Positions 36,868 to 41,923 of a DNA stretch of 50,939 bases are shown piece after piece. Each line of letters starts with the position of its first letter. Within the stretch, counting starts at the first letter, position 1. The translations under genes were made by a program, and so were the position numbers. The notes beneath the pieces are model-generated. The model was not told the DNA's origin. It ran no database searches and saw only the letters and a program-made list of their open reading frames with translations. This DNA comes from an uncultured Verrucomicrobia subdivision 3 bacterium. GTDB taxonomy: Bacteria; Verrucomicrobiota; Verrucomicrobiia; Limisphaerales; UBA11358. Location of the stretch: positions 1 to 50,939 of the forward strand of contig CAIQWB010000128.1 of the NCBI GenBank assembly GCA_903875465.1. The letters run 5' to 3'.

Positions 36868-39501
36868 ATGAATCCCTTGCTTCCAAGGTCGCTTTGGAGC
36901 GGCATTGCCGGTGCGATGATCTTCGCATCAGGCCTGCTCGCAGCCAAGGCGTCAGTCGGGGTGGCGCAATTTCATCAAAAGGTGGAGCCTTTGCTGGAAA
37001 AGTATTGCTATCAGTGTCATGGCGATGGTGCCAGCAAGGGGCAGGTGGCGTTTGACACCCTCACCAGTGACCAGCAGGTTTTGAACCCCGCGTTATGGAG
37101 CAAGGTTTTGAACAATTTACGGTCCGGGCTAATGCCGCCGCAAAAAAAGCCCCGGCCCACGGCCGCCGAGGAAAAACAGTTGGAGGATTGGATTAAATTT
37201 CAGGCATTCGCGATTGATCCCCGGAATCCCGACCCGGGGCGGGTGACCCTGCGTCGCCTGAACCGGACCGAATATCACAATACCATTCGCGATTTGCTCG
37301 GGGTCGATTTCAACACCGAGGTGGAGTTTCCTCCGGACGACACGGGCTATGGTTTCGACAATATTGGCGATGTTTTAAGCGTATCCCCCTTGCTTTTAGA
37401 AAAGTACATGCTGGCCGCCACGACGATTGTGGATGAAGCTGTCCCTAAGGTCGCCCGTGTCATGCCTGTGTTGGTCATTAGCGGCAGCGCATTTTCGGGA
37501 GACGGCACCAAGGCACCCGGCAACTTTAGCCAGCATGGGCTCAGACGCCCCCCACCGCTGGCTTTTTCATTTTACGAAACGGGAACCGCCACCCATGTTT
37601 TTCAAGTTGAGCATCCGGGCACATACCACCTGGCGTTGGAGCTATCGATCAAAGGGACTTTTGAATTTGATCCCGGCAAATGCCGGGTCATATTCAAGCT
37701 GGACGATCAAGAACTGTTGAACCAGGAATTCACTTGGGAGGACAATAAAATCTTCCCGCCTTTTAAATTCGCAGAGGAATGGCAACCCGGAACGCACCGC
37801 CTGAGTTTTCAAGTGCAACCGCTGGCCGGGAAAGAATCACAGGAGTACCCCTTGGAAATGCGTTTGAACTCGGTGACGATTGCTGGGCCCTTAGACCAAA
37901 AGTATTGGACCCAGCCCACCAATTATGATCGCTTCTTTACCCGGGCAGTTCCGGCAGACCCGGCGGACCGCCGCCCTTACGCCCGGGAAATTTTGGGCCG
38001 CTTCGCTCAAAAAGCCTTTCGCCGTCCAGTGGAATCGGCCTACGTAGACCGCTTATTGGTCCTGGCCGAGAGTGTTTATGCCCAGCCGGGGGAATCGTTT
38101 GAAACCGGTGTGGCCCAGGCCATGGTGGCCGTGCTATCATCGCCGCGTTTTCTATTCCGATCGGAGCTGCCGGCCTCATCAACCACCAAGGAACAGTTTC
38201 CGCTGAATGATGAATATTCCCTGGCTTCGCGACTGTCGTACTTTCTCTGGTCTTCCATGCCGGACGATGAGTTGTTCGAACTGGCCGCGAAAGGTCAATT
38301 GCGCAACCATCTGGGTGATCAGCTCAACCGCATGCTGGCCGATCCGCGTTCCGAATCGATGGTTAATAACTTTACCGGACAGTGGCTTCAAGTGCGGGAT
38401 GTGGAAGGTGTGAGCATCGATTCCCGGGTGGTACTCGCCCGAGACCGGGGTGAGGAGAAACAATTAAAAGAGCAATTGGCGCAGCGGCGCGCGCGGTTTG
38501 AGGCCTCGTTGGCCAATCCGGCCGCCCCAAGCAGCCAGTCCAGTCCCTCAGCGGGCACCAGCAGCCCCGCGTCCGCCGGGCGCATTGCCCGGCGGCGGAA
38601 TCCCCGCTTTCCGCGACCAGCCAATATTCTGGATGCCGAGGCGAAGCATGCCATGCAACGTGAGACGCAAATGGTGTTTTCGCGGATTGTGCATGAAGAC
38701 CGCAGTATCTTGGAGTTGATCGATAGCGATTATACTTACTTAAACCAGCAACTCGCCGGGATCTATGGCCTGACCAACCTGGGCGTCACCGGTCCGGAAA
38801 TGCGCCGGGTCACCCTGCCGCCCGGTAGTCCCCGGGGGGGCGTGTTGACCGAGGGCACGGTGCTGGTCGTGACTTCCAACCCCGATCGTACTTCCCCTGT
38901 CAAACGGGGCTTGTTTGTCCTGAGCCATATTCTCGGATCCCCTCCGCCACCACCGCCACCGAATGTGCCCGCTCTCGAGGCGACGGAAAATCATTTTCAT
39001 GACCGCGAGCCCACGTTGCGCGAAATCCTTCAAGCACATCGTGACAAACCCGAGTGCTTTGCCTGTCACTCTCGCCTGGATCCGCTAGGGCTGGCTTTTG
39101 AAAATTTTAATGCTCTGGGGATGTGGCGGGAACAGGAACGGCACCAGGACATTATTCCCGCCGGCCAGTTGATTTCTGGTGAAAGTTTCACCAACATTCA
39201 CGAATTGAAGCATATCCTGGTCACCAGCCATCATTTGGAATTTTACCGTTGCCTGGTGGCAAAGTTGCTTACGTACGCCATTGGCCGCGGCACGGAGTAT
39301 TATGACACCCAAACGATTGATCAAATCGTCAACCGCCTGGACGCCGCCCACGGTCGGTTTTCAGTGTTATTATATGGCATCATCGATTCTGCTCCGTTCC
39401 AGCGCGAGCGTCGTGATCCCAACGCTGTCTTTGCCGATAGTATCGAAGCTTCTCCGCCACCCCTGGGGGGTGCGCTACCCCGCAACCCAACCAACCCATG
39501 A
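36868..39501 (+). CDS. DUF1587/DUF1592/DUF1588/DUF1585 cytochrome-type protein
   Basis: An 877-residue exported protein (signal about 1-29). A planctomycete-type cytochrome c motif, CYQCH, lies at 47-51, and a second CFACH at 730-734 in the DUF1588 part. Between them are DUF1587 (TLRRLNRTEYHNTIRDLLGV, about 126-145), a carbohydrate-binding-like beta region (about 200-340), DUF1595/DUF1592 (YFLWSSMPDDELFELA) and a SPPPPPPPNVPALE stretch that is usual in the family. A Ser/Pro/Ala-rich, then basic insert (about 551-578) is unusual. These proteins are typical of planctomycetes and verrucomicrobia and are suspected of redox or polymer-degrading roles. Its stop overlaps the next ATG (ATGA). Confidence 0.9.
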   Translation: MNPLLPRSLWSGIAGAMIFASGLLAAKASVGVAQFHQKVEPLLEKYCYQCHGDGASKGQVAFDTLTSDQQVLNPALWSKVLNNLRSGLMPPQKKPRPTAAEEKQLEDWIKFQAFAIDPRNPDPGRVTLRRLNRTEYHNTIRDLLGVDFNTEVEFPPDDTGYGFDNIGDVLSVSPLLLEKYMLAATTIVDEAVPKVARVMPVLVISGSAFSGDGTKAPGNFSQHGLRRPPPLAFSFYETGTATHVFQVEHPGTYHLALELSIKGTFEFDPGKCRVIFKLDDQELLNQEFTWEDNKIFPPFKFAEEWQPGTHRLSFQVQPLAGKESQEYPLEMRLNSVTIAGPLDQKYWTQPTNYDRFFTRAVPADPADRRPYAREILGRFAQKAFRRPVESAYVDRLLVLAESVYAQPGESFETGVAQAMVAVLSSPRFLFRSELPASSTTKEQFPLNDEYSLASRLSYFLWSSMPDDELFELAAKGQLRNHLGDQLNRMLADPRSESMVNNFTGQWLQVRDVEGVSIDSRVVLARDRGEEKQLKEQLAQRRARFEASLANPAAPSSQSSPSAGTSSPASAGRIARRRNPRFPRPANILDAEAKHAMQRETQMVFSRIVHEDRSILELIDSDYTYLNQQLAGIYGLTNLGVTGPEMRRVTLPPGSPRGGVLTEGTVLVVTSNPDRTSPVKRGLFVLSHILGSPPPPPPPNVPALEATENHFHDREPTLREILQAHRDKPECFACHSRLDPLGLAFENFNALGMWREQERHQDIIPAGQLISGESFTNIHELKHILVTSHHLEFYRCLVAKLLTYAIGRGTEYYDTQTIDQIVNRLDAAHGRFSVLLYGIIDSAPFQRERRDPNAVFADSIEASPPPLGGALPRNPTNP

Positions 39502-40904
39502 AAACCCAAACTGACTCCCCGAAATTAAATGTGGCTTCGGAAAGACACCTTAGTTTGAGTCGCCGCCGCTTTCTGCGGAACCTGGGTGTGTGCATTGCCC
39601 TGCCGGCACTGGAATCCCTTTCGCCATTGCGCTTGCTGGCGGGTGCTACTGCCGCTTCCGCCACGGCGTCGGGCCTGGTCACCCCGGTGCGAACGGCCTT
39701 CGTTTATGTGCCCAACGGAATTATTCCCTCGGCTTGGTGGCCCGAGGGCAATGGGGGAAGCGATTTTGTCCTGCCACGCACTTTGCAACCTCTCAAAGAC
39801 GTCCGCAGCCAAATTCAGCTCATCTCTGGCCTGGAGGACCTCAGTGCCAATGCGGGCGAGGATGGCGGCGGCGATCATGCCCGTGCCGGTGGCACCTTCT
39901 TGACCGGCGTACGCATTAAAAAAACGGCCGGCTCGGACATTCACGCCGGGATTTCCTTCGATCAGATACTGGCCCAACGCATCGGCCATCTCACCCGCCT
40001 GCCTTCCTTGGAATTGAGCTGCGACGCCGTGCGCAAGGCGGGGGATTGCGATTCTGGCTACTCCTGCGCCTACGAATATAATCTGGCCTGGCACACGCCC
40101 ACCCAACCGGTGACGCCCGACCCCAATCCTCGGCTGGTGTTTGAGCGTTTGTTTGGGTCCGGCTCCCCCTCTGAGCGGGCCACCAACCTCCAGCGCCGGC
40201 AGCAACAGCAACGGTCCATTCTCGACTTTGTCCTGGCAGATGCCAAAGCCATGGCAAAGGATTTGGGCGGGCGTGACCGTCAGAAATTGGATCAGTACTT
40301 TACCAGCATGCGCGAGATCGAACAGCGCATTGAACGGGCTGAACGCATGCCGGTGCTGAATCCGCAGGCCGACGCGCCGGCGGGAATTCCGGCCAGCTTT
40401 GAGGAGCATGTGCAGCTCATGTTTGACATGCTGGTTTTGGCGTTCCAAACGGATTCCACCCGCGTCGCGACCTTGATGCTGGCGGGCGAGGGGAGCAATC
40501 GTTCTTTTGGTGACATCGGTATTACTGAGGGGCACCATAATCTTTCCCACCATCAAAACGCGCCGGAAATCGTTGCCAAGGTCATGGAAATTGATCTGTG
40601 GTATGCCCGTCAATTAGGGAAATTCCTCAATAAAATGGCGCAAACCAAAGACTTGGATGGTAATACGTTGCTGCACAATTCCATGATCCTCTATGGTTCC
40701 GGTAATGCCGATGGCAATCAACACACCCATACCAACCTGCCAATCTTGCTGGCCGGTTCCGGTGGCGGCAGCTTGCAGACGGGTCGCTACCTGAAAACCG
40801 GTCCAACGCCATTGACTAATTTGTTTCTAAGCATGGCCGATCGCATGGGGGTTGCTGGAATCGAACGCCACGGAGATTCCACTGGGCGTTTGGCGGGTGT
40901 ATGA
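39498..40904 (+). CDS. DUF1552 protein, Tat-exported
   Basis: A 468-residue protein with a twin-arginine signal, SRRRFLRNLG at 21-30, then a hydrophobic stretch. Conserved DUF1552 features include FVYVPNGIIPSAWWPEG, GGDHARAGGTFLTGVR, SFDQILAQRIG, FGDIGITEGHHNLSHH and the final ILYGSGNADGNQHTHTNLP. It is the usual partner of DUF1592/DUF1588 proteins and overlaps that gene by 4 bases, so both are made together. The histidine-rich conserved blocks suggest a metalloprotein, but no reaction is known. The gene ends 2 bases before a large palindromic element. Confidence 0.92.
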   Translation: MKTQTDSPKLNVASERHLSLSRRRFLRNLGVCIALPALESLSPLRLLAGATAASATASGLVTPVRTAFVYVPNGIIPSAWWPEGNGGSDFVLPRTLQPLKDVRSQIQLISGLEDLSANAGEDGGGDHARAGGTFLTGVRIKKTAGSDIHAGISFDQILAQRIGHLTRLPSLELSCDAVRKAGDCDSGYSCAYEYNLAWHTPTQPVTPDPNPRLVFERLFGSGSPSERATNLQRRQQQQRSILDFVLADAKAMAKDLGGRDRQKLDQYFTSMREIEQRIERAERMPVLNPQADAPAGIPASFEEHVQLMFDMLVLAFQTDSTRVATLMLAGEGSNRSFGDIGITEGHHNLSHHQNAPEIVAKVMEIDLWYARQLGKFLNKMAQTKDLDGNTLLHNSMILYGSGNADGNQHTHTNLPILLAGSGGGSLQTGRYLKTGPTPLTNLFLSMADRMGVAGIERHGDSTGRLAGV

Positions 40905-40906
40905 TG

Positions 40907-41082
40907 GTTTTAACCCGAACTCCGAAAGTAAAATGGCTGGGATGTGTCAAGATGTTGGAGCAGGAACACTTTGGAAAAGTCGCCAGCATACTCGCAGTGG
41001 TCTGGTGAGATTTTTCCAAAGCGTTTATGCCCAAGAGATTGATGCAGACCGGCCATTTTAATTTCGGAGTTCGGGTTTAAAC
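40907..41082. repeat. 176-base near-complete palindrome (giant hairpin) between converging genes
   Basis: The outer arms, 40907-40940 and 41049-41082, are inverted repeats matching at 31 of 34 positions (shared core AACCCGAACTCCGAAA). The symmetry continues inward: 40943-40962 pairs with 41028-41046 with gaps, 40967-40978 pairs with 41012-41023 (CTTTGGAAAA against TTTTCCAAAG), then GCCAG/CTGGT and a final ACT-CGC-AGT hairpin at 40990-40998. Almost the whole 182-base gap between the stops at 40904 and 41087 is one long hairpin. I see no flanking target duplication and no T-tract. It may be a MITE-like mobile element or a bidirectional terminator/mRNA stabiliser. Confidence 0.85.
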
Positions 41083-41086
41083 AACC

Positions 41087-41923
41087 TTAAAGCGGACGAT
41101 TATTTCCGGCCGGCCAGGTGGTGGACCATTGCAAACCCCAGAGATCATCTATTTTTTTCATTTCCGCGTGACCATCCGCAAACGCACAGTCACTGCGGCC
41201 CGGAAGTTTGCCCGTGCCGTTGGGTAAACTCCGCGGTGCTGAGCCGGGACCGGCACCGCCATGGCGGGCAATGGCGGCCCGCCCCACCCCAGGACCATTA
41301 TCGCCGCCGTTATATAAATCCCAAGGCGTTTCCTGATCTCCCGGATTTGGCTGGAAATCTGCATAGGTGGCATCGGCAAAATACGGTGTGGCGGTAGGCA
41401 GTCGGATTGCCGACTCTTTTTGAAAATATGCCGTCGCAGTGCTGTAGCCGGAATAACAATAGGCATTCAACCCATAACCCCCTTGAAACTTGGACCCGGT
41501 GCCGCCCCAAACCGTTGGGTCCCATAGGTAGGGATGATCCGCCGTGCCCAAATCCGGATTGCTGGCGGTGGCTTTGTTGATCCCCACCCAGGTTGCCAGC
41601 TCGGGCGCGGCTGGGCAACATCGCGAGGTGGCGCGCAAATTATAGTTCGTCTGCAAGCGGGCAATCCAAAGATTGAAGCCGCCGGAAGGGTCGCCATAAC
41701 TGATCAGCTTTCCGCTGGCATCACTCACATACATGTTCATTCCCAGGGTGAACTGTTTGCTGTTGCTCACGCAATTGATATCCTTGGCCCGTTGTTTGGC
41801 GCGGGCCAGGGCGGGCAGCAACATGGCGGCCAGTATGGCAATGATGGCAATGACCACCAATAATTCAATGAGAGTGAAGGCTTGTGGACGTTGAATGGTC
41901 CGCCGGCCCGGGTTGCTTTTCAT
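41087..41923 (-). CDS. Type IV pilin-like pseudopilin (prepilin N-terminus, DUF1559-like/H-X9-DG type)
   Basis: A 278-residue protein. It starts with a short basic leader and a classic prepilin signal, [17 protein letters not shown]; processing is expected between Ala15 and Phe16, with Glu20 as the conserved glutamate at position 5 of the mature protein. The hydrophobic helix continues to about 40. The C-terminal part has the [17 protein letters not shown] motif typical of the large pseudopilin-like families of planctomycetes and verrucomicrobia. It lies 40 bases downstream of the giant repeat-protein gene on the same strand. It may take part in a type II secretion or pilus-like machine, possibly for that protein; this is inference. 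Confidence 0.92.

Follow-up and report, generated by a model that had tools for sequence, protein, structure and literature searches.

A high-copy palindromic MITE with IS1380-type ends lies between two convergent genes of an uncultured Verrucomicrobia subdivision 3 bacterium

Results

The locus and the limits of the palindrome

We analysed a 50,939-nt stretch of contig CAIQWB010000128.1 (hereafter the window), in which a long imperfect palindrome lies between the stop codons of two convergent genes. The features of the locus are as follows.

39498..40904, + strand, neighbour gene with PF07586 (DUF1552, E 1.4e-103); stop codon TGA at 40902-40904
40909..40913, no strand, left copy of the target duplication, TTTAA (5 bp)
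40914..41075, + strand, MITE, 162-bp short form, oriented as the family consensus
40914..40927, + strand, left terminal inverted repeat, CCCGAACTCCGAAA; IS1380 elements carry such ends
40914..40991, + strand, left arm of the imperfect palindrome, matched by the opposite arm at 60 of 78 aligned positions; limits approximate
40998..41075, - strand, right arm of the same palindrome, its limits also approximate
41062..41075, - strand, right terminal inverted repeat, complementary to the left one at all 14 bp
41076..41080, no strand, right copy of the target duplication, TTTAA (5 bp)
41087..41923, - strand, neighbour gene encoding a protein with an N-terminus of the type IV prepilin kind (PF07963, E 2.4e-08); stop codon TAA at 41087-41089

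A listing of inverted repeats in the window (arms of at least 16 bp, at most 400 bp apart) has 13 entries, of which this palindrome is the longest, with outer arms at 40900-40958 and 41031-41089 and inner arms at 40960-40981 and 41009-41030. The fold prediction that an earlier note on this DNA had proposed gave a stable RNA structure on both strands: for 40900-41090, the energy was -104.2 kcal/mol on the + strand (z = -12.9) and -86.3 kcal/mol on the - strand (z = -11.9), and neither value was equalled by any of 200 shuffles. By these z-scores and the inverted-repeat listing, the giant palindrome which that note had described at 40907-41082 is confirmed and well past what chance would give, and its count of 31 identical positions out of 34 in the outer arms is exact for 40907-40940 against 41049-41082. 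Its limits need correction, with the element proper spanning 162 bp (40914-41075) between exact 14-bp terminal inverted repeats, while the outermost bases of the palindrome as first described are the two copies of the TTTAA duplication, which are partly paired, and a few flanking bases. The window copy encloses no complete ORF among the listed ORFs of at least 60 aa, and a search of Rfam yielded no family match (two hits, one at E 0.47 and one at E 0.77, were far below the gathering score, and the latter lies outside the element). Once the element and one TTTAA are removed, the gap between the convergent stops measures 15 bp; the palindrome does lie between both stops, as had been noted, and the gap appears exactly filled because the element would have inserted into just these 15 bp.

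Copies in the genome

A genome-wide search, also proposed earlier, established that the element is multicopy. With up to 3 mismatches allowed, an internal motif was found at 99 places in the 5.3-Mb genome, split 54 to 45 between the strands (reversed control, 0), and the terminal 16-mer, allowed up to 2 mismatches, gave 116/115 matches against 3/5 for the reversed pattern. When the element was compared with its own genome by BLAST, full-length copies of about 86-97% identity and many partial matches were obtained (40 of 161 candidates scored). Within the fetched stretches, the internal motif at up to 4 mismatches gave 101 hits, and both ends were recognised in 78 rows, corresponding to 76 distinct elements since L108 and L144 match in both orientations and were counted once. 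Twenty-four of these complete copies are 161-162 bp long and 52 are 214-232 bp long (44 of the latter 224-225 bp), the long form having about 63 additional bases in mid-element; by eye, there are two sequence subfamilies, each with both size forms. The mean pairwise identity was 93% in the short set and 91% in the long set, so that most copies are not recent. Only one end was recognisable in the other 23 motif hits, which were excluded from the copy counts; 18 of them are no farther than about 550 bp from a contig end, and five are well inside contigs (the first copy of L085, L115, L117, L125 and L146).

The 5-bp flanks of the 76 copies were identical in 50, alike at four of five positions in 17 and worse in 9, and in a 6-bp frame they were identical in one copy out of 76. 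Thirty of the 50 perfect duplications read TTTAA/TTAAA and 7 read TTGAA/TTCAA. A 5-bp duplication, TATGA, is generated by ISEcp1 of the IS1380 family, according to an excerpt of PMC2887853. Variation per column was 0.015 in the 14-bp ends and 0.038 in the whole stem, in copies that had been preselected for ends with at most 4 mismatches.

Several irregularities accompany these copies. Many contigs of the assembly (e.g. C3, C9, C18, C25, C69, C71, C81 and C89) end inside or beside a copy. The first copy of L085 (the same place as L023), L117 and L125 have in common a variant left end, CACCGAAAAC(A/C)GCGAGGAACC, which replaces the usual terminal repeat; these copies may form a third subfamily or share a truncation. 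L079 (C48, right) and L146 (C152, left) each have one end repeated in tandem, with two terminal repeats side by side, and in L079 the flank ATAAT recurs outside the outer terminal repeat. The copy in L093 (C89:80300-82109) has flanks that mirror each other over 20 bp at a contig end, perhaps as an assembly artefact.

In an exact scan of a one-genome-per-species collection (84,980 species, from which records of the source genome or its near relatives may be omitted, as also from the plasmids searched), the internal motif was present in a single record, CAIXXC010000065.1 (L238), which is labelled as a Rhodospirillales MAG; over 2.8 kb it shares 99.9% identity with C27, a contig of this genome, and so is probably a mis-binned contig from the same species as the window genome. 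The plasmids searched contained no match to the internal motif.

IS1380-family transposases between matching ends

In related genomes, the ends of the family, CCCGAACTCCGAA, are also found on either side of IS1380-family transposase genes. In this genome, where the transposase families PF01609 and PF13701 were searched, no PF13701 match was detected at E 1e-3 and no tblastn match to the partial protein of L195 (a locus in a relative, described below) at E 1e-20, and the IS1380 link therefore depends on the relatives; the assembly is fragmented, and a high-copy IS might be absent from it. PF01609 transposases were considered as the mobiliser and rejected: of the three genome hits (L061-L063), L061 and L062 have no end within 3 mismatches, and the two 3-mismatch end matches at L063 do not appear end-like.

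PF13701 matches were found in 19 of the 39 relatives searched with that profile. The partial IS1380 transposase of L195 (NF033539, 76.7 bits against a cut-off of 180) ends 39 bp inside an end reading TTTAG-CCCGAACTCCGAAG. With its protein as query (E 1e-20), 17 of 293 genomes of the order gave matches and 24 loci were returned, some of them overlapping. At four places among these loci (L215, L217, L220 and L223, the last being the same as L231), such ends stand on both sides of the gene and delimit elements of about 1.5 kb; several of the remaining loci, including L218 and its 474-aa frame, have one end only, and at others neither end is present. In L217 and L220 the first 13 bases of both ends agree exactly with those of the family; L215 departs from them by one base at a single end, and L223 by one base at each of its ends. 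The flanks read TTAAA/TTAAA in L223 and TTTAA/TTCAA in L215; the duplications of L217 and L220 are unreadable because L217 begins and L220 stops at a contig end. L220 has an intact 474-aa transposase ORF (NF033539, 233.4 bits against the cut-off of 180; PF13701, E 1.9e-31), the only unbroken frame of the four, with L215, L217 and L223 appearing frame-broken. L217 comes from the same genus as the window genome.

These four IS1380 elements resemble the MITE in their ends, in their AT-rich 5-bp flanking repeats (where readable) and in coming from the same bacterial order, whereas they differ from it in having a transposase gene (intact in L220) and in their interiors, which are dissimilar by eye. 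By eye, the ends of MITE and IS look unrelated once past the first 14 bp or so, and the MITE therefore did not arise by simple deletion from any of the IS copies seen. IS1380 elements with other ends also occur among the relatives, as in L188 (CCTGAGAAATGC, TTGAA) and L194 (CCTAGAAACGGC, TTCAC).

Small elements with the same ends in relatives

With no more than 1 mismatch allowed, the terminal 16-mer was found in 17 of 39 relatives, with at most 6 forward and 5 reverse matches against 108/108 in this genome; lone matches in relatives can be chance, as the reversed control also shows some. In 19 fetched stretches, chosen from the listed 16-mer matches, eight small elements of 185-212 bp (genomes G021, G019, G033 and G010) were inspected closely. 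In L172 (G006, contig C91), a 20-bp palindrome at 1978-1997 consists of both IS1380-type ends alone with TTAAT on either side, perhaps a minimal element or a deletion remnant. Counting this one with the eight, 5-bp flanks were identical in six of nine and not in three. A paired-ends pattern with 138-168 bp spacing, which misses the ordinary copies of this genome (their spacing falls outside the range), matched in 8 of 320 genomes of the order, including the window genome through its tandem-ended L079, with none in the control. Of the ten places it matched outside this genome, all but the third in G108 were examined (two in G021 were already known), and the 5-bp flanks of these nine were identical in L240, L242, L243, L244 and L248 and not in L239, L241, L245 and L247.

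The search of relatives that had been suggested thus recovered elements with shared ends, but the interiors examined do not match that of the window copy. With the ends removed, the interiors of 15 small elements and the window copy were compared by BLAST (E 0.01). One group comprised G021, G026 and G049 (72-76% identity over most of the length, one pair being joined via a 48-bp stretch), to which a short stretch of G010 was also joined; the three G019 interiors grouped together, as did the two of G108; G033 grouped with G224 via a 51-bp stretch; and the interiors of G208, G199 and the window copy each matched none, giving seven groups in all. In this small sample, picked by ends and size and not by fold, 13 of the 16 interiors beat all 100 dinucleotide shuffles in predicted fold, and the fold of the other three was reached by 1 (G019_a), 5 (G019_c) and 3 (G199) of 100 shuffles; fold alone is no proof of function. 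Judged from these comparisons, one IS1380 end pair is joined to at least seven unrelated interiors (about 160-230 bp), mostly strong folders, within one order. The interior common to G021, G026 and G049 spans three different families of the order and is therefore older or wider-spread than the MITE family of the window.

Genomic context of the copies

Gene calls from a simple codon-usage script, run on the uncut sequence and blind to genes interrupted by copies, placed 28 of the 76 copies between convergent, 33 between tandem and 9 between divergent genes, and 6 at an edge. As empty sites, 7 of 76 fell in predicted coding sequence, compared with 812 of 1086 control TTNAA sites (same loci plus the window). 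Among non-coding, non-edge sites, convergent positions were over-represented (21/64 against 28/199, P = 0.0015) and divergent positions under-represented (9/64 against 68/199, P = 0.0025), with tandem positions at 22/64 against 83/199; this TTNAA control is imperfectly matched because some targets are not TTNAA. Against a window-only control (26 non-coding sites), the convergent excess was not significant (P = 0.63) and there was a tandem excess (P = 0.009). Few copies lie in genes and convergent gaps hold more than their share, the distribution to be expected of tolerated parasites. Table 1 of PMC3049150 lists the pneumococcal repeats RUP, BOX and SPRITE as over-represented between convergent genes, and in the text excerpted from that paper its authors read the bias as tolerance of probable parasites downstream of genes.

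Variation in the stem and choice of target

It has also to be considered whether the copies, though inserted by transposition, are now kept as a two-way terminator or mRNA 3'-end stabiliser of convergent genes, a reading that would fit their convergent excess and the very stable fold on both strands. Such stability is a property of any long palindrome, however, and the 33 copies between tandem genes and 9 between divergent genes do not fit that role. No terminator-like site (a stem followed by a T-run) was found at 40800-41200 when loops of 3-8 were scanned. Among the 24 short copies, stem columns varied less (0.038) than unpaired columns (0.088), a difference that is partly circular because the structure was taken from the consensus. 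In the short set, six pairs had both members changed, a count reached by none of 500 shuffles (mean 2.0) and above that of slid versions (1 to 4), but relatedness among the copies inflates such shuffle tests and matched changes are also expected from arm-to-arm DNA copying; in the 41 long copies of alignment A2, hand-chosen from 52 (the 11 omitted include L093, L131, L137 and L157, of ordinary length), just one pair had changes on both sides. Rare changes at consensus Watson-Crick pairs (excluding variants present in more than 4 of 24 copies) comprised 14 G-U, 7 A-C, 21 uncompensated transversions and 7 compensated changes, a pattern not clearly different from that of neutral decay. In the window copy itself, where the earlier note had seen many wobble pairs between the arms, the case for them is weak: six mismatches are G-U on the + strand, two would be G-U on the - strand, and there are ten transversions and two gap positions. 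None of the proposals that the fold is kept at the RNA level, that it is a shared bidirectional terminator or RNA stabiliser, or that it is a source of long double-stranded RNA is supported, the stem showing no clear sign of RNA-level selection. We consider a retained RNA role improbable; there is no good evidence for one, and nothing requires it.

We likewise weighed whether the element is guided to the loops of existing hairpins (e.g. terminators) or to stop codons and not to TTNAA generally. Single copies such as L076, L099 and L132 lie between short inverted flanks, and among copies with at least 4 of 5 matching flank bases, the 8-bp flank complementarity was reached by 34 of 2000 swaps (67 sites), and by 115 of 5000 for 20 short copies alone. 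Without L093 and its mirror-image flanks, however, 353 of 5000 swaps reached the 8-bp value (66 sites), the 46 long copies showed no excess of flank complementarity (1756 of 5000 swaps), a small-offset test gave 799 of 2000 swaps, and the fold energy of the empty sites was just 1.0 s.d. from that of swapped flanks; complementarity had, moreover, been tried at several lengths and subsets. The 5-bp target itself contains a neighbour's stop codon at 12 of 64 non-coding sites, against 20 of 199 control TTNAA sites (P = 0.08). Convincing in hand-picked copies and weak over all copies, hairpin-loop targeting was rejected, and guidance by hairpins or stop codons is in our view very improbable.

Discussion

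The high copy number, the terminal inverted repeats, the 5-bp duplications and the IS1380 elements with matching ends in relatives, together with the context bias against one of two controls, bear out the earlier suggestion of a MITE-like palindromic element between two stop codons. A REP/BIME or ERIC-like repeat moved by no IS transposase would also be a high-copy, mostly intergenic palindrome, and is extremely unlikely given the 5-bp duplications and the ends in common with IS1380 elements. Because these ends bound both IS1380 genes and small elements in relatives, the mobiliser of the MITE is likely of IS1380 type, and the palindrome is very probably a MITE that an IS1380-family transposase inserted at TTTAA in a 15-bp convergent gap, one of about 100 copies situated where they do little harm. 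An IS1380-family transposase would have recognised the ends of the 162-bp element and inserted it at a TTTAA site in the gap between the two convergent genes; filling-in of the staggered cut would have left TTTAA on both sides; and the gene-less element would have multiplied to its present number, with present-day copies found where harm is small, mostly outside genes and in convergent gaps more than expected. We infer that such a transposase moved the MITE, that the family is now immobile here, and that the context bias reflects selection and not target choice.

Several known systems offer parallels. The pneumococcal RUP, BOX and SPRITE repeats are likewise short and interspersed with a convergent excess, a likeness of description and not of sequence in the excerpt of PMC3049150, whereas the IS1380 link is particular to the MITE. 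MITEPye1 of Paracoccus yeei is, in the part of PMC11578231 consulted, also a long stem-loop with IS-matching ends and flanking direct repeats, but it goes with an IS1182-family IS and has 1-3 copies per chromosome. Many ends of animal piggyBac elements start with CCC and the targets are TTAA or similar, according to an excerpt of PMC10813416, a study in which IS1380 served as outgroup; piggyBac differs in its 4-bp target and eukaryotic hosts, the likeness being one of ends and target alone. Among the titles and abstract openings surveyed on IS1380, MITEs and Verrucomicrobia, none names a high-copy IS1380-tied MITE.

This MITE family accounts for a striking palindrome and for numerous breaks between contigs of the assembly. 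As a high-copy MITE linked to IS1380, it is a newly described member of a well-known class of genomic parasites. Since one end pair bears at least seven unrelated interiors, most of them folding beyond shuffled DNA, we raise the tentative and on balance doubtful proposal that a palindromic interior, and not a particular sequence, is required for moving or for survival beside genes; if it is needed for movement, a hairpin or cruciform form or a fixed end-to-end spacing may be what matters. With like ends and different folding interiors across the order, the question of what the interior of a MITE is for becomes askable.
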